Positions 1-41,519 of a stretch of 64,000 bases of DNA are shown one piece after another. The translations under genes and the position numbers were made by a program. Position 1 is the first letter of the stretch, and every line of letters begins with the position of its first letter. Source of the DNA: Planctomyces sp. (GTDB lineage: Bacteria > Planctomycetota > Planctomycetia > Planctomycetales > Planctomycetaceae); NCBI GenBank assembly GCA_019636235.1, contig JAHBXW010000005.1, positions 62,001 through 126,000 of the forward strand, read 5' to 3'. The notes under the pieces were generated by a model that did not search any database, was not told the DNA's origin, and saw only the letters and a program-made list of their open reading frames with translations.

Positions 1-904
1 AAGAGGGAGAACCGAAGGTCCTGGGCCCCCTGTTGATGCCGCGCGCCGGGTCCCGCCAGTTCGACGCCGACCCCCAGGCGGGAATCGATTCCACCACGTC
101 CCCGGCCAGAATCGTCTGCGACGTGCCATCGGTGATGTCGCTCAGACGCAGGCCGCGATTGATGCCCAGCAGCCGTTCGTTCGCCGAATACGAGGCGGGC
201 GCGTAGCCACCCTGGGTTTTCGACTGCTGCGGCAAGGCGGGATTCATGAACCCCGGGACCGGGGTCTCAAACACGCTGCGATGCCGAGGCGACTTCCAGG
301 TCTCCTGCAGATCGATGCGGCGGAACAGGCTCGCCTGGTCGGTGTAGGGCAGAATCGACGTCAGCCAACCGTGCAGCGCCCGTCCGGACTCATCGTAGGT
401 TCCCCCGGCGGGAAGCCGACCTGCCTGGTCGATGAAATTGTGCATGCCGAGTCCAAGGTGTTTCTGGTTGTTTTTGTTCACCACGCGTCCCATGAACTCA
501 TAGGAATTCGAATAGATCAACCGTTCTTCCGAGGTTGCCAACCAGGCCGCCTGATGCGCGATCCCCACGATGGACACCGCGCCGGCGAACACCAGCGCGA
601 TCGCTCCCAGCAGCATCCAGGTCCAGCGCGTCGGCCAGCGATCGCGTATCCTGTGAAACTGACGCGATCGAAACGCCGCCCGACCGGAGACGTGAATCAT
701 CAGCCCGGTCAGCCCCAGCAGCGCCGCGAAACTCAAGACGCCCGCGCCGCTGATCGAGACATTCGGCAAGGTTCCCTCCGCATGCCGCATCCAGCCAAAC
801 AGAATCGCGAACACCGCCTGCAGCGGCGCGACGAGCCCGGCGCAAACCAGCAGCAGCGAGATTACGATCAGCGCCAGGCCGGAAGTGAGCGTGCGCCGGC
901 TCAT
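1..904 (-). CDS. DUF1559 (SBP_bac_10-like) protein, 3' end cut by window edge
   Basis: Reading the minus strand from ATG at 904-902 gives an open frame running off the window start (about 301 residues seen). The N-terminus has three hydrophobic segments (about residues 8-30, 48-68 and 93-113) in place of the usual single pilin-like FTLIEL helix. The DUF1559 signature follows: NNQKHLGLGMHNF, then LPAGGTYDESG, YADQ-like ILPYTDQ and LSDITDGTSQTILAGD. DUF1559 proteins are a planctomycete-expanded, pseudopilin-like family of unknown role. The start overlaps the stop of the upstream gene (ATGA), so the two are probably translationally coupled. The extra membrane segments are unusual for the family. 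The family call is firm; the function is unknown. Confidence 0.85.
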   Translation of the reverse strand, partial: MSRRTLTSGLALIVISLLLVCAGLVAPLQAVFAILFGWMRHAEGTLPNVSISGAGVLSFAALLGLTGLMIHVSGRAAFRSRQFHRIRDRWPTRWTWMLLGAIALVFAGAVSIVGIAHQAAWLATSEERLIYSNSYEFMGRVVNKNNQKHLGLGMHNFIDQAGRLPAGGTYDESGRALHGWLTSILPYTDQASLFRRIDLQETWKSPRHRSVFETPVPGFMNPALPQQSKTQGGYAPASYSANERLLGINRGLRLSDITDGTSQTILAGDVVESIPAWGSASNWRDPARGINRGPRTFGSPS

Positions 905-5528: not shown

Positions 5529-6887
5529 TCACTCCGACCCGGAGTTCCCCGACATCGGCGATGCGATGCAGATCAGTCGGTCTCCGCCCCGCATGATCAA
5601 CCGTCCGTCAACCGCCGCGACGCCATACAACGTCGGCCCGCTGGACGGACCTCCCGGAGGCCCCTCGCTGGCTGCCTCCTCGATCGGCCAGCACGCCGAT
5701 TCGCCCAGCTTGCGGAACACCGGTTCGTCCGCGACGACCGTCGTCATGCCCCCCTTGCCGAACAGCAGAATCCGGTCGCCCGTCACCAGCGGCGTCGCCC
5801 ACACGCTGTCCGCCGTCCGCTCCGCGTACCGCTCCTCGCCCGTCTCAAGGTCCAGGGCATACAGCACGCCGACGCGATTGACGAAGTACGCGGCTGTCGC
5901 GGACGCGACGGGCGAACCGAACGAGCTTGTCGCGCGGCGGGCCCGCCACACGTAATCGGCCGTGAATCCGCCCGCGTCATCACGACGAATCTCGACCAGG
6001 CCGTTCGAGGCCGCGGAATTGCCGCCCCCCTCCTCGCCGCGGCCTGAAGTCGCGCCGATCAGGAACCGTCCATTTCCCACCGGAACGGGCGTCGGAGTCG
6101 AGTTGCCCTGCACGCCGGTCAGCGCCCACAGCTCGCGCCCCGTCGCGGGGTCCAGGCCGCGCAGGCTGCCGATGGCGCTCAGCACCAGATGCTCGCCCTC
6201 GCCGACAGGAACCAGCCGGGGGCTGGCCCAGCTCGTCGCGCCAACGCCGGGAATCTTCCACCGCGGTTCGCCCGTCGCTTTGTCGAGGGCCAGCACGTAG
6301 GGATCCTCCTGCCGCTCGACCCATACGAACGCGCAGTCAGCGTTCTGTTCGACCGAACTGCTGATCCCGTGCCGCGACACGATCGGCCCCTGTTCCTCGA
6401 CCAGGTTCCGCTGCCAGCGGACGTCGCCCGCGTGGTCCAGCGCAACGACCAGGCCGCCTTCGAAGAAAGCGATGACGCCCGCGGCGTCGACGGCCGGAGT
6501 CGGCGCCGCCACGCTGACGTACCCGCTGTTTTCCTGGGGCGTCGGATTCGGGAACTCCTTCCGCCATTTCAGCGAACCGTCCGCGACGTCCACCGCCACG
6601 ACCTGGCAGGTCTCTGATTCCGGACCGGACAGACACGTGGCATACACGATCCCGTTCCAAACCACCGGGCTGGACTGCCCGACGCCGGGAAGTTCCAACG
6701 TCCATGCGATTCCCGACGTCGGAGTCCATTCCACGGGCAGGTCTTCCGCGGGGTGCAGCAACCGGCCGCCGTTCTGGAACGAGCTCCAGCCATCGGCCGC
6801 AGGGAGCTGCGGCGCGACCGCCAGACCGATCGCCAACAGCCCGGCCCGCAGCCGGCCCCGCCCATTCCCCGCACCGTGACGCGTCAT
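5529..6887 (-). CDS. Exported PQQ-like beta-propeller repeat protein
   Basis: 452 residues from ATG at 6887. I chose this start because it gives a signal peptide (MTRHGAGNGRGRLRAGLLAI, cleavage near LPAADG). Upstream in-frame codons look non-coding. Repeated blade motifs are visible: DGSLKWRKEFPN, AGDVRWQRNL, TGEPRWKIPGVG, TGRELWALTGV and TGEERYAERT. Planctomycete propellers of this type usually lack dehydrogenase active-site residues and resemble BamB-like scaffolds, so no enzyme activity is claimed. It lies 115 nt downstream of the Kelch gene on the same strand and could be a distal operon member. Confidence 0.88.
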   Translation of the reverse strand: MTRHGAGNGRGRLRAGLLAIGLAVAPQLPAADGWSSFQNGGRLLHPAEDLPVEWTPTSGIAWTLELPGVGQSSPVVWNGIVYATCLSGPESETCQVVAVDVADGSLKWRKEFPNPTPQENSGYVSVAAPTPAVDAAGVIAFFEGGLVVALDHAGDVRWQRNLVEEQGPIVSRHGISSSVEQNADCAFVWVERQEDPYVLALDKATGEPRWKIPGVGATSWASPRLVPVGEGEHLVLSAIGSLRGLDPATGRELWALTGVQGNSTPTPVPVGNGRFLIGATSGRGEEGGGNSAASNGLVEIRRDDAGGFTADYVWRARRATSSFGSPVASATAAYFVNRVGVLYALDLETGEERYAERTADSVWATPLVTGDRILLFGKGGMTTVVADEPVFRKLGESACWPIEEAASEGPPGGPSSGPTLYGVAAVDGRLIMRGGDRLICIASPMSGNSGSE

Positions 6888-7002
6888 GTCCACGTTCCCT
6901 GTAAGCGGCGTCGCCCCCCTCTCCGTCATCGCCCCCAACGGGGCTGGGACGAACGGGAGGCTCGGCCAGGCTGGTCGACTCAAAACGATTCCGTCGCCGT
7001 CT

Positions 7003-8643
7003 TCACCGCACGGTGACGACGTCCACTTCCTCGAACTTGCCGCTCTGCATGCTCGCGCCGCCGACGATCACCACGCGATGATCGTCGATCGGCAGCATGC
7101 GGTGAAAGAAGCGGCCCGTCGGCAGCTCCTGAACAGTTTCCCAGCGCTGGCCGTCGGCGGACAGCCGCTGCAGCGTCGACTCGCTGGTGCTGACGAACAG
7201 GTCCCCGCCGACCGCGAAGGCCGAGCTGCCGAAGCCGGCCATCGGCTTGCCTTCAATGGAGGGGCCTTCCGACCAGGCGCCGGACCGCGGGTCGAAGATG
7301 CTGACCTTCGTGCAGGGGCCGCCTTCCTTCTGCATGCCGCCGATGACATACAGCCGGTCCTGATGGGCGGCGAGCGCCAACGCCCGCCGTTCAAATCCCG
7401 GCGCGGGGAGGGCCTTCCACTCGGGCGTCTCAGCCGTCAGGTCCATCGACCAGGCGGTCGTGTGCCAGGTGTTCTTCGATCCTTCCAGCGCCCAGCCGCC
7501 GACGACGTACAGCGTGTCGCCGACGATGGCCGCGTCATGCGACGAGCGGGCCTCCGGCAGGTCGGGCAGCGGCTGCCATTCGCCGGAATCGAGATCGAAC
7601 CGCGCGGCCGTGTTCTGCGACCACAGGTCGTGCTCCTCGCCTTCGGCGTTTTTCGCCGTGAACCCGCCGATGCGGTACAGATGGCGGCCGTGCGCGACCA
7701 GCGCCAGCCCCTGCAGGCCGGGGCCCTGGCTGATCGATTCCCATTGGCCGCTGCCGTCCAGACGCAACCGGAACAGGTCGCGTCCCTGGCCTTCGTTGGA
7801 GTAGGAGTGGGCGGAAGCGAGGTTGCCGCCGTAGACGTACAGCGCATCGCCGACAACCGCGCCTCCCAGGCTGGTGGCGGGGGGCGTCAGCGGGGCGAGC
7901 TGAGCCATGTCGGCGGGAATCTTCGCGGCGGTCACCGTTGTCGGCTCCGAAACCTGGAACGTCACGGTCGAATAATGCCGGATGCTGTCATATTGCTGGC
8001 CATTGTGCTCGCCGGAGGCCTCTTCCATCACGCGCGCCCGGACGGCGTGCAGCCCGGAGGCGTTAAGCGGGAAGCGGGCCTGTCCCTGCGCGTCGGCCGC
8101 GGACTTCACGTCGCCGACGTTCGGCAGCACGGCCGTCACTTCCGCGCCCTCGGCCGGCTTGCCGCGCCACTGCACAGTCACCAGCAACTGGCCGTCCGCA
8201 TCGATGGCGGGACGGACGTCGAGTTCCAACTCCTTGCCGGCGTCGAGGGACTGCCAGGCGGGATTGGTGATGGCCGGCCCCCCCTTGGCGTAGTACTTCA
8301 GCCGGAACTTCGCATCTCCGCGGGCGATCACGCCGAAGTCGCACACGCCCACGACAAAGTTGGCGTCGTCCGCCGGCAGCGGGGCCTGCAGCGAGTCCTC
8401 GCCCTTCGTCAGGGCCAGCTCCTCCACGGCGCGGGGGCTGATCCGCTTCGCCTTCAGGTCGGCGAGCCGGTTGAGGAGGGCCGGGTCATCGGCTTCGGCG
8501 TCCTCGCTGAAATACACATGAACTTCCGTCTGGCCGGATTCGGCCTTCTGGACGAACCACAGAAAGTGTGCGTGCGCGACGGACGGCAGAGCCAGACCGA
8601 CGCACGCAGCGGCGGACAGCAGCCAGTGCTTACAGGACATCAT
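7003..8643 (-). CDS. DUF4198 domain fused to a Kelch beta-propeller
   Basis: 546 residues. The signal peptide is residues 1-26 (LPSVAHA-HFLWF). Residues about 26-240 match the DUF4198 type, seen in periplasmic parts of cobalt/nickel uptake systems: the mature N-terminus begins HFLW and includes VHVYFSEDAE and TVQWRGKPAEGAEVTAVLP. Residues about 250-540 are Kelch repeats with paired glycines: DALYVYGGN, LYRIGGF, LYVVGGW, LYVIGGM and VVIVGGA. Two ATGs are available (8643 and 8640), and both overlap the lipoprotein stop (ATGA). It is the last gene of the DUF1559-lipoprotein-DUF4198/Kelch operon, whose promoter carries a Fur-box-like site. A role in metal handling at the cell surface is inferred from that site only. 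Confidence 0.85.
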   Translation of the reverse strand: MMSCKHWLLSAAACVGLALPSVAHAHFLWFVQKAESGQTEVHVYFSEDAEADDPALLNRLADLKAKRISPRAVEELALTKGEDSLQAPLPADDANFVVGVCDFGVIARGDAKFRLKYYAKGGPAITNPAWQSLDAGKELELDVRPAIDADGQLLVTVQWRGKPAEGAEVTAVLPNVGDVKSAADAQGQARFPLNASGLHAVRARVMEEASGEHNGQQYDSIRHYSTVTFQVSEPTTVTAAKIPADMAQLAPLTPPATSLGGAVVGDALYVYGGNLASAHSYSNEGQGRDLFRLRLDGSGQWESISQGPGLQGLALVAHGRHLYRIGGFTAKNAEGEEHDLWSQNTAARFDLDSGEWQPLPDLPEARSSHDAAIVGDTLYVVGGWALEGSKNTWHTTAWSMDLTAETPEWKALPAPGFERRALALAAHQDRLYVIGGMQKEGGPCTKVSIFDPRSGAWSEGPSIEGKPMAGFGSSAFAVGGDLFVSTSESTLQRLSADGQRWETVQELPTGRFFHRMLPIDDHRVVIVGGASMQSGKFEEVDVVTVR

Positions 8644-9080
8644 CGGGATTCCTTGGTCGTCAGGGGAAAGTGAAATTCATTCGGCTGGCCGGCGACGACA
8701 GTCGCCTCCAGCGGGGTGTCCCGGCGATACCGCTCGGGAACGGAGGGGGGCGGCAGGGGCTTTTTGGGACGATTCGCGAAAGCGATGTCGTCGTCCAGAG
8801 CGAATCCGAGTTCGACCTGCCCCTCGACTTCCACGCGGTAGTCGCCGGGAGGCAGTCCCGCGTCATCGGACAGGCGGTACTCGCCCGCGATGATCGCGGC
8901 ATACCCCTCGACGCCGCGGGACGCCGCCGGCACGAACCGGATGCGGCCAGCCTCCAGCGGCTCGCCGTCCAGAGTCACCTCTCCCTGGACGGGCAGCCGC
9001 AGGGGACCGGCTTCCCCGCAGGCCGATAGCGCCAGCGCCGCGACGATCGCCGCTGTCAGCAGCTTCTGCTGTGCGTTCAT
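8640..9080 (-). CDS. Small lipoprotein with carboxypeptidase-regulatory-like fold
   Basis: 146 residues with a lipoprotein signal and lipobox (LSAC, Cys21). The mature part reads as a transthyretin-like or carboxypeptidase regulatory-like domain: VQGEVTLDGEPLEAGRIRFVPA, YRLSDDAGLPPGDYRVEVEG. Planctomycetes often encode such a lipoprotein next to a DUF1559 gene. It sits between the DUF1559 gene (17-nt gap) and the DUF4198-Kelch gene (overlapping ATGA). Its function is unknown. Confidence 0.85.
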   Translation of the reverse strand: MNAQQKLLTAAIVAALALSACGEAGPLRLPVQGEVTLDGEPLEAGRIRFVPAASRGVEGYAAIIAGEYRLSDDAGLPPGDYRVEVEGQVELGFALDDDIAFANRPKKPLPPPSVPERYRRDTPLEATVVAGQPNEFHFPLTTKESR

Positions 9081-9097: not shown

Positions 9098-10009
9098 TCA
9101 GAACTCGCCGACGACTTCGCCGCCGGAGCGGGTGGCCGCGGCGTTCAGCGTCGCATGGTCGACGCTCTCGTTGACGAACCGCACCGAGCCATCCGCCATG
9201 CCCATGTGCACGCCCCCGATGTGATCGCTGCGGAAGCTGCCCAGCCGGTTGCTGTCGCCGTCCAGCCGCTTGGGATTGAACGGCCCCTGCGTGCTGAACA
9301 TCGTCGACAGCGGGTATGGCGAGGACCAGTAGGTGAAGCCCCAGCGGGTCTGTCCCGAGCAGGGTGTGGGGGGCGAGGCGCTCCAGACGTAATCCGGGAA
9401 GTTCCAGGCGGATTCGCCCGTCATGAAGGTGTTCGTCGTGCCGTCGGTGATGTCGCGGATTTTCGTGACCGCGCTGCCGTGGCTGGTGAACACGCCGTTG
9501 TTTGGCAGACCGCCCGGCATGGCCGTGCCCCAGCCGCTGGTCGAGCCGCTGCTGACGGCGTAGGTCCCGGGGGCGCGGTTGTTGGAATCGCAGCCGGGAG
9601 TGGGGACATTGCGGCGGATCACAGCTGACGGACAGAGGTAGGCGGGGATGGCCTGCGAGACGACCTGCATGTTGGCGGCGTTGGTATGGGGCAGGTTCCA
9701 GTCGTAGAGGTTGTAAAGCGGTCCCTGATCCATGAAGGACAGGATGGGGACGAAGGCGCTGGTCTTGCCAAACGTGCCGTCGAGGTCTCCGCGGGGGAAG
9801 ACGCTGAACGTGTCGTGGTAGTTGTGGATCGCGAGTCCGATCTGTTTGAGGTTGTTCTTGCACTGGGTCCGTCGGGCGGACTCGCGGGCCTGCTGGACGG
9901 CGGGGAGCAGCAGCGAGACGAGGATCGCGATGATGGCGATGACGACGAGGAGCTCGATGAGCGTGAAGGCGGGTCGCCGGGCGGGCGATGAGACGGGTGC
10001 TGGGCGCAT
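9098..10009 (-). CDS. DUF1559 pseudopilin-like protein
   Basis: 303 residues from ATG at 10009. I chose this start because it places the prepilin motif [17 protein letters not shown] about 15 residues from the N-terminus. The helix is followed by [33 protein letters not shown], the classic DUF1559 signature. The C-terminus ends [19 protein letters not shown], also typical. It is the first gene of a three-gene unit whose promoter overlaps a Fur-box-like palindrome. The family is firm; its biochemical role is not known. Confidence 0.93.
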
Positions 10010-10128
10010 GTGTGTGCGACGCTCCAATTGAGTGGGACGAAGAGAGGTCCCTTGCGTTGCGCGGCAGGGGACCGACGTCCGAGCGTGGCGGGCTGAGCGT
10101 AGCGGCTGTCGCTGGCTGGCCTCGGAGT
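10010..10128. other. Leader between the promoter and the DUF1559 gene
   Basis: About 120 nt separate the Fur-box-like site from the DUF1559 start on the minus strand. This would be the untranslated leader if transcription begins near 10151. No clear hairpin or riboswitch was recognised. Confidence 0.35.
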
Positions 10129-10149
10129 TGAAACTGAGATTCAGTCTCA
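10129..10149. promoter_or_regulatory. Fur-box-like operator
   Basis: Two overlapping 7-1-7 inverted repeats are offset by 6 bp. TGAAACTGAGATTCA lies at 10129-10143 and TGAGATTCAGTCTCA at 10135-10149. This is the arrangement described for Fur-family sites (TGATAAT-N-ATTATCA), and I count 15 of 21 matches to the extended consensus. It overlaps the predicted start of transcription of the DUF1559-lipoprotein-DUF4198/Kelch operon, where a repressor would block it. Zur or another Fur-family member is possible. Confidence 0.6.
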
Positions 10150-10158
10150 ACACGAGCG

Positions 10159-10186
10159 ATTGTACAGTCCCCCGCACGGCACGCAA
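10159..10186 (-). promoter_or_regulatory. Predicted promoter of the DUF1559-lipoprotein-Kelch operon
   Basis: On the minus strand, TTGCGT (10186-10181) and TACAAT (10164-10159) are 16 bp apart. The -10 matches 5 of 6 consensus bases and the -35 is weaker. The predicted start near 10151 falls at the edge of the Fur-box-like palindrome. Confidence 0.45.
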
Positions 10187-10304: not shown

Positions 10305-12407
10305 TCACTGCAGCGCGCGGAACAGATTGCTGTGGTCGTCGGTCCACAGCACCCGCTTCGATTGCGGCGTTTGAGCCGCCTCGGCAATCCCCTCCGCTTC
10401 GAGGATCGACGGGTCCCGCGCCACGAGCGTCCAGACGCTGGTGGCATCCCCGGGATACACCGTGCCCCGGTCCTCGATCGTCGCGGTCGACAGGCCCCGC
10501 GTCTCCGCGATCGCGTCCACGACCGGCCGCAGATCGAAGTACAGGTTGGAAATGTGGAACGCGATGATCCCGTCCGGCGCCATGTGCTCGAGGTACACGC
10601 CGAGCGCCTCCTTCGTCAGCAGGTGGATCGGAATCGCATCCCCCGAGAAGGCGTCCACCACCAGCAGGTCAAAGCCCTGCGGCGATTCCCGCTCCAGCGA
10701 CAGCCGCGCATCCCCCAGCACCACGTCGACGTCCGCCAGCGTGTCCTTGAGATACGTGAAATGCTCGTTCGCCAGCGCCAGCACGTCCTCGTTGATTTCA
10801 TAGAACCGCAGAGCATCCCCGCCGTGGCCGTAGGCGGCCAGCGTCCCCGTGCCCAACCCCACCACGCCGATCCGCAGCTGCGCCTGCCGCTCCCGCAGCG
10901 CTGCGACAGCGCGGCCCGCTCCCGATCTCTCCGAGTAATACGTCGAGGGAACCATCCGCAGTTCCGGCTCGGCGTACTGCAGCCCATGCAGAATGTGCCC
11001 ATGCCGCAACACGATCGAGTTCGCCGGCCCCTCCCACGGAGGATTGCCGAGTTCGGCGTCCGGCGACTGGTCGGTCTGCAGCGCTTCCGCGACTTTCAGC
11101 ACGCCATAGAAGTTTCGCCGGATCGCGAGGACCTCGTCCCGGTCACGGGTCGTCTTGACGAGCATCGCGCCGACGGCGCCCAGCAGGCCCACCGCCGCCA
11201 GCTTCACGAACCAGGGCGTGGCGCTCTCGCCGAAGATTGAGCCGGTCGAATCGAATCCCACCGCGACCGTGATCAACGCGACCGCGCTCACCAGGACGTG
11301 AAACTCCCAGTAATCGTTGAACGTCAGCGGCGCCACGACCGCCACCAGCAGTCCGCCGGCCGCGCCGCCAGCGGACAGCGTCAGATAGAACGCCGTCAGA
11401 AACCGCGGACCCGGCCGCAGTCGCGCCAGCTCGCCGTGACACAGCATGCAGACCACGAACAGGCAACTGAAGTAGATGCCGGCCTGATTCGCCAGGGACA
11501 GCTTGCGACCGTGGAGAATCATCCAGCACAGGCCGAGCACCGCCGCCGCGCTGAGAAACGCGAACGCCGGACGCTGGTACCAGCGGTCGCTCTCGAAGCA
11601 CAGGATGAACGACAACAGGTACAGCGACAGCGGCAGAACCCACAGGAACGGAAACACGACGTCCTGGCTGACGTGATTCGTGAGGGCCATCAACATCGCG
11701 GAAGCGACCATCGCCAGGCCGAACCACACTCCGCGGCGGATCAGCGTGGGAGGGAGTTCAGGCGTCTGCACGGGCGAATCGTCGAGGTTCCCCGCACCGG
11801 GCAGCAACGCGACGCGCAGCGCGCAGGCGCCGCACAGCGCCGCGAACGCCCAGAAGCCGATCGACCACCCCGTCGCCTGCTGACGCAGCGTGAGATTCGG
11901 CTCGACGAGAAACGGAAAACTCAGCAGCGCGAGCAACGACCCGGCGTTCGACAGCGCGTACAGCCAGTATGGCGACCGCCCGGGCGCGAGCAGGCTGTAC
12001 CACCACTGCAGCAGCGGCCCCGTGGCCGACAGGACGACATAGGGCAGTCCCACGGTGACGGTCAGCACGGCCAGGATGCGGTGAATCGGAGCATCCCCGC
12101 CGGTCGGCTTCCAGGCGGCATCGGGCAGCACCTGCAGCAGAATGACGGCCGCGGCCAGCAGCGCGAGGTGCAGCAGCGCGTGCGCCTTGCGGGGCAGCCG
12201 CGCGGCGATCAGGTGCGCGTACAGGTAGCCCGCGAAAAGACCCGTCTGGAAGAACAGCAGGCAGACCGTCCAGACCGCCGAGGTGCCTCCGAACCAGGGC
12301 AGGATCGCCTTGCTGATCAGGGGCTGAATCTGAAACAGCAGGAACGCGCTCAAGAACACGGCGATCGGCAGGATCACGAGCGCGGGTTCGCGGCGGGGAG
12401 ACGTCAT
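10305..12407 (-). CDS. Fused multi-pass membrane / spermidine synthase-like protein
   Basis: 700 residues from ATG at 12407; a GTG three codons earlier is also possible. The N-terminal 430 residues hold about 10-12 hydrophobic helices, starting VILPIAVFLSAFLLFQIQP, typical of MFS/spermidine-synthase fusions. The C-terminal 250 residues carry a class I methyltransferase-like Rossmann motif (IGVVGLGTGTLAAYG), FYEINEDVLALA, and DVVLGDARLSLE...FDLLVVDAFSGDAIPIHLLT, the polyamine synthase signature region. Such fusions are widespread in environmental bacteria, and polyamine synthesis is not proven for them. The gene is monocistronic between the DUF1559 operon and the CDF exporter. Confidence 0.85.
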   Translation of the reverse strand: MTSPRREPALVILPIAVFLSAFLLFQIQPLISKAILPWFGGTSAVWTVCLLFFQTGLFAGYLYAHLIAARLPRKAHALLHLALLAAAVILLQVLPDAAWKPTGGDAPIHRILAVLTVTVGLPYVVLSATGPLLQWWYSLLAPGRSPYWLYALSNAGSLLALLSFPFLVEPNLTLRQQATGWSIGFWAFAALCGACALRVALLPGAGNLDDSPVQTPELPPTLIRRGVWFGLAMVASAMLMALTNHVSQDVVFPFLWVLPLSLYLLSFILCFESDRWYQRPAFAFLSAAAVLGLCWMILHGRKLSLANQAGIYFSCLFVVCMLCHGELARLRPGPRFLTAFYLTLSAGGAAGGLLVAVVAPLTFNDYWEFHVLVSAVALITVAVGFDSTGSIFGESATPWFVKLAAVGLLGAVGAMLVKTTRDRDEVLAIRRNFYGVLKVAEALQTDQSPDAELGNPPWEGPANSIVLRHGHILHGLQYAEPELRMVPSTYYSERSGAGRAVAALRERQAQLRIGVVGLGTGTLAAYGHGGDALRFYEINEDVLALANEHFTYLKDTLADVDVVLGDARLSLERESPQGFDLLVVDAFSGDAIPIHLLTKEALGVYLEHMAPDGIIAFHISNLYFDLRPVVDAIAETRGLSTATIEDRGTVYPGDATSVWTLVARDPSILEAEGIAEAAQTPQSKRVLWTDDHSNLFRALQ

Positions 12408-12526
12408 GTCGGGCACGCGGTGGCGGATGAAGTCGATCGTCGGGGGGCGGCGGATCGCGTCCCGGATTGGTTGGGCATCTTATCGAGGCCGGCGGCGGCA
12501 TGCGCCGGAGCGCCCCGGCCCGGCCA

Positions 12527-35559: not shown

Positions 35560-36435
35560 TCAGAAATCCCCGACCAGCTCGCCGTCGTCGCGATGCCCCA
35601 ACTTCCGAAACAGATCCCCGTCGATGTTCGTGGAGACGAAACGCACCGAGCCGTCCCCCATGGCGAAATGGCTGCCCAGCGAATGGCTGCTGGCGAATCC
35701 GCCGCACACAAGTCCCGCCTGCGCCGGATCGACATCCGCGCCCTCGCCGTCCGCCCCCCCGGACGGCGACTGCAGCGCCGCCGCATAGGGGGCGTATGTG
35801 GATTCAAAGACGACCGTCGCTCCCGTGTTCCGCAGCGTCCGGTTCGATCCATCGATCCAGGTCGGGCCGGACGGGACTTCTCCGAGAAACAACGTGTTCG
35901 CCAATCCATCACGAATGTCCGACAGCTCCAGCCAGCTGTTCAGGAAGAACACGCCGTGGTTGTCGTCGTCGATCGGCGCCTCGACGTCGTGGTGGCAGGC
36001 CCCGTAGGCGAAGCCCGGCGTCCCCCGCGACGGACAATACAGCGTCCGCAGGCTGTGCTGGCCCAGCGATCGGTTCGGCTCCTCGAACGCGGACTTCGCG
36101 AAATCGATCCGCCGGTACACGACGCCTTCATCGAAGTAGGGCAGACTGCGGGCGATCCAACTGATCCGATAGCCAGTTTCCAGGTCGTTGCGAATCGGCC
36201 CCTGATGGTCGACTGTCCCCGCGGGCAGCACGCCATGCGCCGCATGGTAATTGTGCACCGCCATCGTCAACTGCATCAGGTTGTTCCGGCACTGCATCCG
36301 TCGGGCCGTCTCGCGCGCCTGCTGCACCGCCGGCAGCAGCAGCGCGATCAGCACGGCGATGATCGCGATGACGACGAGCAGTTCGATGAGCGTGAAGCCG
36401 CGCCGGCGGCGCGGGGAGAGTGTCTGGATCGTCAC
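35560..36435 (-). CDS. DUF1559 pseudopilin-like protein in a secretion-like operon
   Basis: 291 residues from a GTG at 36435, which overlaps the upstream stop (GTGA) and puts the prepilin motif [17 protein letters not shown] near residue 14. [36 protein letters not shown] follows, and the C-terminus reads GSHFAMGDGSVRFVSTNIDGD. It is the seventh of seven tightly packed genes that include three GspF-like and three pseudopilin-like proteins, which places a DUF1559 protein where major or minor pseudopilins usually sit. Confidence 0.92.
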   Translation of the reverse strand: MTIQTLSPRRRRGFTLIELLVVIAIIAVLIALLLPAVQQARETARRMQCRNNLMQLTMAVHNYHAAHGVLPAGTVDHQGPIRNDLETGYRISWIARSLPYFDEGVVYRRIDFAKSAFEEPNRSLGQHSLRTLYCPSRGTPGFAYGACHHDVEAPIDDDNHGVFFLNSWLELSDIRDGLANTLFLGEVPSGPTWIDGSNRTLRNTGATVVFESTYAPYAAALQSPSGGADGEGADVDPAQAGLVCGGFASSHSLGSHFAMGDGSVRFVSTNIDGDLFRKLGHRDDGELVGDF

Positions 36436-37986: not shown

Positions 37987-39482
37987 GTGACCTCCGACGT
38001 CAGATCATTCAGCAGCCGCACCAGCGGCAGGAACAACGCAATGCAGCAGAACCCGACCACCGAAGCGAATGCGATCAACAGCACGGGCCGCGTCCACTCC
38101 AGCCACCATCCCGTCCGCAGCTTCTGCTGCGACTCGATGACGTCTCCCAGCGAGCGCAGCGCCCAGGGCAGGTGTCCGGCGGCCGCGGACGCTTCGAGCG
38201 CCGCCTGTTCATCGGCCCTCACAATGCGCTCGCGCCGCAGCGCCGCCCAGGGGGACTCTCCCTGCTCGACGGAATCCACGATCCGGTGCAGCCGGCGCTG
38301 GAGATCCTGGCGATGATGATGCGCCGCGAGTTCCGACAGGACCAGCGGCAGCGGCTGCTCCGCCGCCACGCCGACAGAGAGCGTTCGCAACAGCTCCGGC
38401 GCATCCCGGCGGGGGAACCAGCGCATCAGCAGCGGAGCGTTCAGGTTCTCCCAGCCGATCGTCGCCACGAGGAACGGCAGGAACAGCAGCGCCATCGGAA
38501 TCAGGATCATCGGCAGCGACAGATACCACATCGCCCCCATGCCGTCTGAGAGGTGGATGAGCAGCATCGTCGAGCCGGGCAGCTCGACGCCGAAGTCGTT
38601 GAAGATGTTCTTGAACTTCGGAATGATCCAGTACATCAGGAACGAGATCACGCCCAGCAGGATGAACAGGACGCTGATCAGGTAGCTCTGCAGCGGCAGC
38701 AGGTCCCGGGGCCCGCCGACCTCCGTCAACGTCTGAATCGACGCGTCCGCCGCCTGCCTGAGGACGACGGGAAGCTGATCGGTGCCCTCGGCGGCGCGGA
38801 TCGCGAGGATCGTCGACCGGGGCACGAGAGGCGTCCCGACCGACAGCGCGTCCGACAGCGTCCGGCCGCTGCGCAGGCGATCGGCCAGGGACAGGAGCGG
38901 CACGGCTTTCGCCGATGGCAGGCCATACGCCGCCGCGTCGATTTCGTCGGCCAGCGGCAACGACGACTCCATCGCGATGGCCATCCGATGCAGCAGGTTC
39001 GATCGCTGCCCCGCCCGCATCGCGCTCAGGATCAGCACCATTGTCGTCAAGCACGCCGGAGCCACGATCACCAGCGGCGGAACGAATCCCGCCAGCGGCA
39101 GCAGCATCAGGCACCAGCAGGCCAATTGAAAGATCGCCTGGTTCCGATCGTGCCGCGCACGCTCGACGACCGTCGTCGGCTCTGGCTTCCGGGCGCACCA
39201 CTCCCCCAGAATTCCCCCCACGACCGCCAGCGAGGAATACAGCCCCACCACAATCGAGATCAGCAGATCCTCGATCCGCAGCAGCTCCAGCTCGGGGCGC
39301 TGGGCGATCAACAGCCCCAGGGCGGCCAGCCCCGCGCCAGCCAGCCCGGCCCCCAACCCCCGTCGCACCAGCCGCCACATCTCCTGCTCATCCGGCGCCG
39401 CATGCCGCTGCGCATGACGATCCACCACCAGAACCAGCAGGCTCAGGAGCGGGATCGACAGCAGCAGCAGCAGCAACACCAT
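37983..39482 (-). CDS. GspF-like inner-membrane protein, third of three, extended
   Basis: 499 residues, longer than the roughly 400 typical of GspF. An extra N-terminal region adds about four hydrophobic helices (LLLLLSIPLLSLLVLVV; AGLAGAGLAALGLLI; LISIVVGLYSSLAVVGGIL; LACWCLMLLPLAGFVPPLVIV). The rest is GspF-like: ILAIRAAEGTDQLPVVLRQAADA, then SYLISVLFILLGVISFLMYWIIPKFKNIFNDFGVELPGST, and a second T2SSF-like domain beginning FPRRDAPELLRTLSVGVAAEQPLPLVL. It follows the second GspF gene by 4 nt. GspF anchors the pilus/pseudopilus assembly ATPase. Confidence 0.88.
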   Translation of the reverse strand: MVLLLLLLSIPLLSLLVLVVDRHAQRHAAPDEQEMWRLVRRGLGAGLAGAGLAALGLLIAQRPELELLRIEDLLISIVVGLYSSLAVVGGILGEWCARKPEPTTVVERARHDRNQAIFQLACWCLMLLPLAGFVPPLVIVAPACLTTMVLILSAMRAGQRSNLLHRMAIAMESSLPLADEIDAAAYGLPSAKAVPLLSLADRLRSGRTLSDALSVGTPLVPRSTILAIRAAEGTDQLPVVLRQAADASIQTLTEVGGPRDLLPLQSYLISVLFILLGVISFLMYWIIPKFKNIFNDFGVELPGSTMLLIHLSDGMGAMWYLSLPMILIPMALLFLPFLVATIGWENLNAPLLMRWFPRRDAPELLRTLSVGVAAEQPLPLVLSELAAHHHRQDLQRRLHRIVDSVEQGESPWAALRRERIVRADEQAALEASAAAGHLPWALRSLGDVIESQQKLRTGWWLEWTRPVLLIAFASVVGFCCIALFLPLVRLLNDLTSEVT

Positions 39483-39486
39483 GTCG

Positions 39487-40500
39487 TCAGGCCAGTTCGT
39501 TCAGCAGTTTCACCAGCGGCAGGAACAGCGACAGCACAATGAATCCCACAACCAGGCCGATCAGCGCCAGCATCACGGGCTCGATCCACACGATCGCCAG
39601 GCGAGCCATCGCCTCCGCCTGCAGCGAAAACAGCTCCGCCTGCGTCCGCAGAATCCTTGCGAACGCCGTCGGCCGCTGCGAATGCCGCAACACCTGAACC
39701 ACAGCAGGCCGGAAGTTCGGCAGCAGCGCAGCGGCTTCCGCGGCCGGCTCGCCATGCTCCACCAGCCTCGACAGGTCGCCCACCCCGTCGCGCAGGTTCG
39801 AATCCGTCAGCGACTTGCCCGTCAGACGCAGCGCCTCCGGCAAGGGCTTCTGCGCGTCGACCAGTATCGCCAGCAGCGAAAAGAACTCCGCCGCCGCCGC
39901 CATCCACGACGCCGTTCCCAGCACCGGCACGCTCTGCAGCATCCGCCCCAGGGCCCCCCCCAGCGGCAGTCGCGGCAGCAGGATCAGCGCCAGCATCAGC
40001 CCCGCCGCGATGGCCATCCCCGCCGCCACCAGCGGCACGTGCTCCGTCAGGAACAGGCTCAGCCCGATCAGGCCCACCGTCATCGCCGGCAGTTCCATCC
40101 CGAAATCGTTGAACATCGACGCGAAGCCCGGCACCAGAAACAGCAGCATCCCGCCCAGCAGCGCCACCGTCAGCAGCAGCACGATGAACGGGTACATCAG
40201 GCTCAGCATCATCCGCCGCCGCGCCTGCCGGTTCCGCCGCATAACCTCGATGTACTCGCCCAGCACGTTCGGCAGCCGCCCGCTGGCCTGCGCGATCTCA
40301 AACGCGCCCGCCAGCACGGGAGGCAGGCGCCGCTGATGCGTCCTCAGCACTTCGCTCCAGTCGCTGCCGCGATCAAGGTCCGCGCTCATTGAACGCAGAG
40401 TGCGCGACAGCCGGAAATCCAGCGTCTCCTCGGCCAGCAGCGCCAGCGTCATGGACAGATTCGGATCGTTGCGGACCGGCACGGGAGCGGCGGGCGTCAC
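39487..40500 (-). CDS. GspF-like inner-membrane protein, second of three
   Basis: 337 residues from GTG at 40500, which overlaps the stop of the first GspF gene by GTGA. The first T2SSF domain is shortened: LALLAEETLDFRLSRTLRSMSADLDRGSDWSEVL. Then LSLMYPFIVLLLTVALLGGMLLFLVPGFASMFNDFGMELPAMT matches the family's helix and FNDFGxELPxxT motif. A second domain (AAEFFSLLAILVDAQKPLPEALRLTGKSL) and a C-terminal helix follow. The tandem second copy is unusual. Confidence 0.88.
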   Translation of the reverse strand: MTPAAPVPVRNDPNLSMTLALLAEETLDFRLSRTLRSMSADLDRGSDWSEVLRTHQRRLPPVLAGAFEIAQASGRLPNVLGEYIEVMRRNRQARRRMMLSLMYPFIVLLLTVALLGGMLLFLVPGFASMFNDFGMELPAMTVGLIGLSLFLTEHVPLVAAGMAIAAGLMLALILLPRLPLGGALGRMLQSVPVLGTASWMAAAAEFFSLLAILVDAQKPLPEALRLTGKSLTDSNLRDGVGDLSRLVEHGEPAAEAAALLPNFRPAVVQVLRHSQRPTAFARILRTQAELFSLQAEAMARLAIVWIEPVMLALIGLVVGFIVLSLFLPLVKLLNELA

Positions 40501-41519
40501 GGCTGCGGGCTCCCCAGCTGACGCCAGAGATCGGCCATCGGCACGAACACCGACGACGCATACAGGAACGCCGTTCCGCCGCCGACCACGCTGACCAGAA
40601 CCGTCGGCACGAGTCGTCCGGCAAACGCGGCTCGCGTCGCGGCCCGCCGGCGATACAGCTCGGCGGCGCTCCGCAGGCCTTCCGACAGCCGCTGACTGTC
40701 GCGGCCGCTGGCGACGAACAGCGATCGCCAGACCGGGGGAATCGTGGCCTCTCGGGCCAGCGCCGCGGCCGCATCGCCTCCCCGCGACAGGTGCTCCTCG
40801 ACCCGATTCAGCGCGGCGCGCAGCGCAGGGCTCGTCAGACACGAAGCCGTCAATCGCAGCGACAGGGGCAGCGGCGTCCGGCTGTCGATCAGCACCGCCA
40901 GCAGCTCGCTGGCGTTCGCCAACTGCAGTTGCCGCTGGATCCCGGCGATTCCCGGCAGATTCAGCAGCCGCGTCGGATCCGCGACCAGCCACGCTCCGAC
41001 CACCGCCGCCGCGAGCGGCAGGGTCCAGCCCCACAGGTGAATCGTCGCCGCGAGCGCCTCCGCCGGACCCAGCCAGGCCGGAGCCGTCAGCCGGAACGAC
41101 TCGAACGTCCCCGCCAGCGCCGGCAGCAGCACCAGCAACAGGCCGATGAACAGTCCGAAGCACAGCATCAGCAGAATCGCGGGGTACATCAGCGACCGCA
41201 ACAGCGTCTCGCGCAGCGACAGCAGCCTGCGCGTCGAATCCGAGAAGTCCGCCAGCACCTCGGCCGTCCGATCGGACTTCAGCCCGGCCGTCACGATCGC
41301 CGCGAACAGCGGCGGAATGTCCTCCTGATCCTGCAGCGCCTCCTCGAGCGGCACGCCGGAATCCAGCCGGGCGCCCAGCCGCTCCGCCGCGGCCCGCAGC
41401 CCGCCCCGCCAGTTCCGCGACGCCGACCGCAGCCCGCCGCCCAATGGAACCCCCGCCCGCATCAGCGCTTCCAGCTCGTCGGCGAGCAGCAGCAGATCGC
41501 GGGAGACGACTGCGGGCAC
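40497..41519 (-). CDS. GspF-like inner-membrane protein, first of three
   Basis: 340 residues from a GTG at 41519. The start is not certain: an in-frame TTG lies 9 nt upstream, and ATG near 41632 would extend the protein. Two T2SSF domains are visible, RDLLLLADELEALMRAGVPLGGGL with SLRETLLRSLMYPAILLMLCFGLFIGLLLVLLPAL, and ELLAVLIDSRTPLPLSLRLTASCL. A C-terminal helix follows (PTVLVSVVGGGTAFLYASSVFVP). It is the first gene of the run and divergent from the histidine kinase gene. Confidence 0.85.
   Translation of the reverse strand: MPAVVSRDLLLLADELEALMRAGVPLGGGLRSASRNWRGGLRAAAERLGARLDSGVPLEEALQDQEDIPPLFAAIVTAGLKSDRTAEVLADFSDSTRRLLSLRETLLRSLMYPAILLMLCFGLFIGLLLVLLPALAGTFESFRLTAPAWLGPAEALAATIHLWGWTLPLAAAVVGAWLVADPTRLLNLPGIAGIQRQLQLANASELLAVLIDSRTPLPLSLRLTASCLTSPALRAALNRVEEHLSRGGDAAAALAREATIPPVWRSLFVASGRDSQRLSEGLRSAAELYRRRAATRAAFAGRLVPTVLVSVVGGGTAFLYASSVFVPMADLWRQLGSPQP

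Follow-up and report, generated by a model that had tools for sequence, protein, structure and literature searches.

A near-palindrome of 23 bp, TTGAAACTGAGATTCAGTCTCAA (plus-strand reading, positions 10128-10150), is predicted to be a Fur box that controls a planctomycete operon for exported proteins. The window in which it lies is the whole 64,000-nucleotide stretch analysed here, from contig JAHBXW010000005.1 of a Planctomyces sp. genome (GCA_019636235.1), and the box follows a predicted minus-strand promoter and then precedes genes for a DUF1559 protein, a small lipoprotein, a DUF4198-Kelch fusion and a PQQ-type propeller. The site very probably serves Fur, and iron rather than zinc, because it is conserved at orthologous operons, because the same motif stands at iron genes and because the genome holds one FUR-family gene; the genes behind it would probably be switched on under iron shortage. 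The fuller reading, in which the palindrome is an operator for Fur, the operon is repressed in an iron-dependent manner and its exported products help to capture metal, is advanced with considerable confidence.

Sequence and geometry of the palindrome

The box comprises two overlapping 7-1-7 units (10129-10143 and 10135-10149), offset by 6 bp and each complementary at 6/7 positions, and 18 of the 23 positions match their own reverse complement. It begins 1 bp to the left of the interval first flagged, 10129-10186. The original prediction had drawn on this Fur-type geometry, and both units and their offset are indeed present, but geometry alone occurs at chance level: the window has three doubles of 7-1-7 units that reach 6/7 or better in both, and 30 first-order Markov simulations gave a mean of 0.97 and a maximum of 3. 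Bare geometry was rejected as evidence for this reason. Among the three doubles in the window, only that at 10129 starts with TGA.

The palindrome sequence itself, in contrast, lies beyond chance, as revealed by genome-wide pattern counts for which the reversed control gave no match. No further match to TTGAAACTGAGATTCAGTCTCAA at up to 3 mismatches was found elsewhere in the window, nor in 100 shuffles. The symmetrised pattern, with up to 3 mismatches, occurs at three places in the 5.6-Mb genome and a slightly looser consensus at four, the extra box adjoining a known one, with zero matches of the reversed control in both cases. A still looser E. coli-type frame, TGANANTGANNNTCANTNTCA, is matched with 2 mismatches at 12 places, namely the four known sites and eight more, against 2 for the control.

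The operon and its promoter

The promoter elements read from the sequence are a predicted -10 hexamer, TACAAT (5/6; 10159-10164, minus strand), 8 nt upstream of the box, and a predicted weak -35 hexamer, TTGCGT (3/6; 10181-10186, minus strand), separated by a 16-bp spacer. Still on the minus strand, the first gene behind the box (9098-10009) encodes a 303-aa protein with a prepilin-type N-terminus and an SBP_bac_10/DUF1559 domain (PF07596, 177.5 bits; PF07963, 28.2 bits). It is followed by a gene for a small lipoprotein (8640-9080, minus), with the lipobox LALSAC recognised by eye and Pfam matches that are weak and below cut-off, whose stop codon overlaps the start codon of the DUF4198-Kelch gene (ATGA). 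The latter (7003-8643, minus) encodes a 546-aa fusion protein with a predicted signal peptide ending in AHA and His26 as mature N-terminus. Directly behind it lies a gene for a PQQ-type β-propeller (5529-6983, minus; PF13360), a probable further member of the operon. Among the 60 orthologous loci fetched, 19 have a homologue of this propeller gene downstream of the DUF1559 gene and on the strand of the operon, and one more (L088) has it ahead of the DUF1559 gene. The operon is often longer than the three-gene set first described, through the PQQ propeller in those 19 loci and through a TPR gene at the front in five.

On the other side of the promoter, positions 10305-12416 (minus) encode a 703-aa protein that by eye looks like a membrane protein whose C-terminal part resembles spermidine synthase. 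It has no Pfam match at 0.001 and no relative in the 60 fetched loci.

Conservation at orthologous operons

Of 150 genomes of the family, 80, counting the present one, encode a DUF4198-Kelch homologue (E <= 1e-30), and the surroundings were fetched for 60 of the 79 others; the 19 omitted comprised partial or Kelch-only matches, matches near a contig edge and close relatives of genomes already taken. Four loci (L052, L079, L080, L101) are cut off before the operon start, leaving 56 that could be evaluated with a pattern that had been derived from the window site in advance of reading any ortholog locus. Absence of the palindrome upstream of orthologs had been named as a refuting result in the original prediction, and this check did not refute it: the site stands at the operon start in 49 of the 56 loci with up to 4 mismatches and in 53 with up to 5 (the 5-mismatch loci being L051, L072, L073 and L100), although these loci, which come from related genomes of one planctomycete family, are not independent. 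Three of the 56 (L063, L065, L075) have no site at the operon start. The family consensus of the site is TTGANANTGAGNCTCANTNTCAA. Across 751 kb of loci, window region included, 55 matches with up to 4 mismatches were found, compared to none for the reversed pattern and a total of one for 20 shuffled palindromes. That the palindrome arose by chance, a reading that the expectation of about one double 7-1-7 per window would allow, is therefore refuted for practical purposes by its retention in orthologous loci and by control patterns almost devoid of matches.

The site keeps its place when the leading gene differs. In L068, L077, L078, L084 and L097 a TPR gene leads the operon and the site precedes that gene, and in L051 (5 mismatches), L056 and L092 the DUF4198-Kelch gene itself is the first behind the site.

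Promoter-like hexamers accompany many of these sites at fixed distances. A TTGACA-like hexamer (at least 5/6) lies 29 or 30 bp before 12 of 54 sites, own included, and a TATAAT-like hexamer (at least 5/6) 7 or 4 bp before 10 of the 54; with the threshold relaxed to at least 4/6, promoter hexamers appear at those offsets for 26 of 54 sites, against 1 at control offsets. The window differs from the best orthologs in this respect, its -10 having an offset of 14 bp before the site and its -35 being weak. Where the promoter is visible in orthologs, the last part of the -10 and the likely transcription start fall within the site, which would place the box in a repressor position, as judged from predicted promoter elements.

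With enough iron, Fe(II)-Fur would bind the palindrome, probably as two overlapping dimers, and by covering the transcription start just downstream of the -10 would keep the DUF1559/lipoprotein/DUF4198-Kelch operon, with the PQQ propeller gene where present, switched off. When iron is short, Fur would leave and the operon would be expressed together with hemP and bfd, and in relatives also with feoAB and PepSY genes. Fur might instead activate this operon, or act without bound metal, modes described for a few other bacteria (PMC3751524). A protein bound at or just downstream of the -10, where the ortholog box lies, should however block polymerase, and DUF4198 operons are reported to be derepressed in a Caulobacter fur mutant (PMC3751524); a departure from classic repression accordingly appears very improbable.

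The same motif at iron genes

The four sites of the genome belong to three promoter regions, those of the DUF4198-Kelch operon, of hemP (two boxes) and of bfd. The two boxes of the hemP region, 79 bp apart from start to start, lie between a DUF1559 gene and the divergent hemP (PF10636, 1.8e-19); 48 bp separate the hemP start from the closer of the two. At bfd, 7 bp lie between the end of the box and the ATG of a gene for a BFD-type [2Fe-2S] ferredoxin (PF04324, 1.4e-8). In other bacteria, hemP, bfd and feoAB are established Fur targets. The genome contains a single FUR-family gene (PF01475, 1.3e-26), and the solved chains closest to its product are named ferric uptake regulation protein. No box was found near this gene at up to 5 mismatches in a 16-kb region (L011), nor at the feoB locus of the genome (L198). 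A DUF1559-type gene (6156-7166, minus, in L011) lies close behind the fur gene (7892-8503, minus) on the same strand.

A scan of ten family genomes using the consensus with up to 2 mismatches gave 40 sites, and none for the reversed control. All 40 were sorted by the first genes behind them; 32 loci were fetched, one or more proteins were Pfam-scanned in 23 of these, and DUF1559 genes were recognised by eye from the prepilin motif. Eight sites precede the DUF4198-Kelch operon, five bfd (one of them, L138, assigned by sequence only), four hemP (two divergent from a DUF1559 gene), two feoA and one a PepSY protein alone. Four others stand before DUF1559 sets with a PepSY protein, one of which is led by a TPR gene, two before DUF1559 genes with a further Kelch or DUF4198 protein and eight before other DUF1559 genes, with the remainder at TPR genes (four), an esterase (one) and a locus that bears no assignment (L131). 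Across the phylum, 79 genomes were scanned: 29 of them, 25 of these among the 75 that lie outside the family, have a match at up to 2 mismatches, and 3 have one for the reversed control.

Two recurrent protein types accompany these sites. A TPR gene is the first behind a Fur-type site in L068, L077, L078, L084, L097, L124, L139, L140, L141 and L144, and in L068, L078, L097 and L124 a small reading frame of 73-87 aa comes next. Long Kelch proteins occur in L123 (806 aa, the frame running off the end of the locus) and L141 (863 aa), the former with weak EF-hand matches as well.

In the relatives, an operon that contains a DUF1559 gene follows more than half of the 40 sites, and the palindrome might on this account be a general leader element, of DNA or RNA, of DUF1559 genes that is unrelated to any metal regulator. 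This is hard to reconcile with the genome under study, where 2 of 59 DUF1559 matches adjoin a site and where the window, with its further DUF1559 matches, has no second motif match at up to 5 mismatches; the site is moreover found before bfd, hemP and feoA, and before TPR or DUF4198-Kelch genes that lead the operon. Such a leader is given very little credence here, and a regulatory site for Fur is preferred.

The feoAB operons show a variant arrangement. One feoB was located in each of eleven genomes, the present one and the ten relatives. In G004 and G040 the long site precedes feoA; in the other nine (own genome and eight relatives) feoAB was compared with a single 17-bp unit like TTGAGACTNAGTCTCAA, which is found with up to 2 mismatches in five (L199, L200, L204, L205, L206) and with 3 in two (L201, L203), the remaining two loci being without any box (L198, the own genome, and L202, that of G048). 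The one unit at feoAB in those first five loci, compared to the double at DUF1559 operons, would perhaps permit graded repression.

The original prediction had linked the operon to iron or zinc. The iron half gains support from hemP, bfd and feoA, which carry this motif, together with the single FUR-family gene, but for zinc no target was recognised: no zinc gene was found among the recognised targets of 44 sites, L131 being without assignment and 23 of the 32 fetched loci Pfam-scanned. Another metal regulator, either a Zur- or PerR-like FUR paralog or a protein of the DtxR type, could nevertheless read the palindrome and confer a response to zinc, peroxide or manganese. The boxes of FUR-family proteins resemble one another, and the metals seen in solved DUF4198/Zcp proteins are Ni, Zn, Co or Cu. 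In every one of the ten relatives a single Fur scores high (89.8-102.4 bits), and nine of them have additional, weaker FUR-family matches, such that the regulator is not unique there. The present genome, however, has only one FUR-family gene, as does G042, which nonetheless keeps four sites, and the recognised targets are hemP, bfd, feoA and PepSY genes with no zinc or peroxide gene among them. A different metal regulator is consequently regarded as improbable, if somewhat less so than the leader element, and Fur remains the favoured reader of the site.

The DUF4198-Kelch protein

All 61 DUF4198-Kelch sequences, that of the window included, have HF where the mature protein is predicted to begin (AHF in 60, GHF in one), and this histidine is invariant in an alignment of 32 sequences. 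The DUF4198 profile (PF10670) matches 30 of these 32 members at E <= 1e-3, the best at 1.1e-14, and the window protein at 9.9e-8, with a score of 32.8 bits that is just below the cut-off of 34. A model of the whole mature protein (pLDDT 76.7) returned mainly Kelch-type propellers among the 50 structure matches listed, and the DUF4198 domain was for this reason modelled alone (pLDDT 85.7). The domain model aligns with Zcp structures (PDB 9mhi-9mhn; Z 18.0-19.0 over 197-203 residues), among which are Zn-, Co- or Cu-bound entries, and with the Ni-bound IsDUF4198 from Ideonella sakaiensis (PDB 9gcb; Z 17.2 over 186 residues), with the next fold far lower at Z 7.0. IsDUF4198 is reported to bind Ni with a Kd of 18 nM and to have an N-terminal histidine that is conserved in 79% of sequences (PMC12537917). 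As modelled, the planctomycete domain adopts the fold of these solved metal-binding relatives, and it may likewise bind metal.

The exported products would comprise a DUF1559 protein of pseudopilin type, a lipoprotein and a propeller fusion whose DUF4198 domain belongs to a metal-binding family. Together they would most likely help to capture metal at the surface of the cell or in its periplasm, with iron as the simplest candidate. The metals used in studies of the solved DUF4198-type proteins were Ni or Zn/Co/Cu and not iron, and control by iron need not therefore mean an iron cargo.

DUF1559 proteins and possible uptake without TonB-dependent receptors

DUF1559 proteins are abundant in planctomycetes, and in Planctopirus limnophila they are reported to form the largest paralog group, with 68 members (PMC10632474). 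The window gene resembles these paralogs in its prepilin-type N-terminus and DUF1559 (SBP_bac_10) domain, but differs in its control: of all the matches in its genome, it and the gene divergent from hemP are alone in adjoining a Fur-type site. Further DUF1559 matches in the window, at 35620-36324 (minus) and 95-475 (minus), have no such site. In the available excerpts of the DUF1559 literature that mention iron, no link between the two is drawn.

The genome has no match to the TonB-dependent receptor barrel (PF00593), nor have G028, G001 and G004; of the 21 genomes in this search, 9 have a match, which exceeds the cut-off in 8, and E. coli, as positive control, was detected. The T2SS/pilus platform family has 20 matches in the genome, making assembly of pseudopilins possible. 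Six matches to this family (PF00482) lie in the window at about 38025-41480 (minus), perhaps a pseudopilin assembly cluster.

A genome that is devoid of the receptor, in a group where many lack it, and that would place DUF1559 genes under Fur, accompanied in relatives by DUF4198, Kelch and PepSY proteins, suggests as a hypothesis an iron route independent of TonB, and DUF1559 sets might serve such a route. A bolder version holds that DUF1559 pseudopilin-like proteins, lipoproteins and DUF4198, Kelch or PepSY proteins assemble at the cell surface under the control of Fur, and that these assemblies take up iron or a complex of it and pass it inward in place of TonB-dependent receptors, the present operon being one version widespread in the family; this is offered as a tentative proposal that is more probably wrong than right. 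For a family of unassigned function such as DUF1559, a Fur box ahead of some of its genes, a conserved subset, points to a role that can be tested under iron limitation. The motif can also be used to map the planctomycete Fur regulon, and it offers a lead on possible iron uptake in cells without TonB receptors.

Comparison with known Fur systems

The consensus of the E. coli Fur box is likewise built of two overlapping 7-1-7 units, around the centre GATAATC. The planctomycete site shares with proteobacterial boxes the TGANANTGANNNTCANTNTCA frame, the 6-bp offset, the position at the promoter and targets such as feoAB, bfd and hemP, but its centre is GAG.CTC rather than GATAATC, and most of the planctomycete feoAB promoters examined have a single 17-bp unit like TTGAGACTNAGTCTCAA. 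No paper on a planctomycete Fur regulon, or on iron limitation together with pilin, was found in a literature search that left subscription journals mostly outside.

DUF4198 genes respond to iron elsewhere. Two in Caulobacter are reported as the most strongly derepressed genes of their own clusters, whether iron is low or fur is mutated (PMC3751524), a DUF4198 gene also belongs to an operon whose expression rises in Caulobacter mutants that have low iron (PMC11870441), and DUF4198 genes of Alteromonas are iron-responsive (PMC7190382). Among the closest known counterparts of the planctomycete operon are CC2193 and CC3059-3063 of Caulobacter crescentus, where DUF4198 is under Fur with strong derepression at low iron, one of the Fur-regulated DUF4198 operons also containing ApbE and PepSY-family partners (PMC3751524; PMC11870441). 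CC2193 adjoins a gene for a TonB receptor (PMC3751524; PMC11870441), whereas the planctomycete genome is without a PF00593 match, and the planctomycete DUF4198 domain, unlike those of the Caulobacter operons, is fused to Kelch and encoded behind a pseudopilin-like DUF1559 gene and a lipoprotein gene. With IsDUF4198 and Zcp, finally, the planctomycete protein shares the predicted fold and, with IsDUF4198, the histidine that follows the signal peptide, and is set apart from them by a sequence identity of 13-19% and by the Kelch propeller at its C-terminus.
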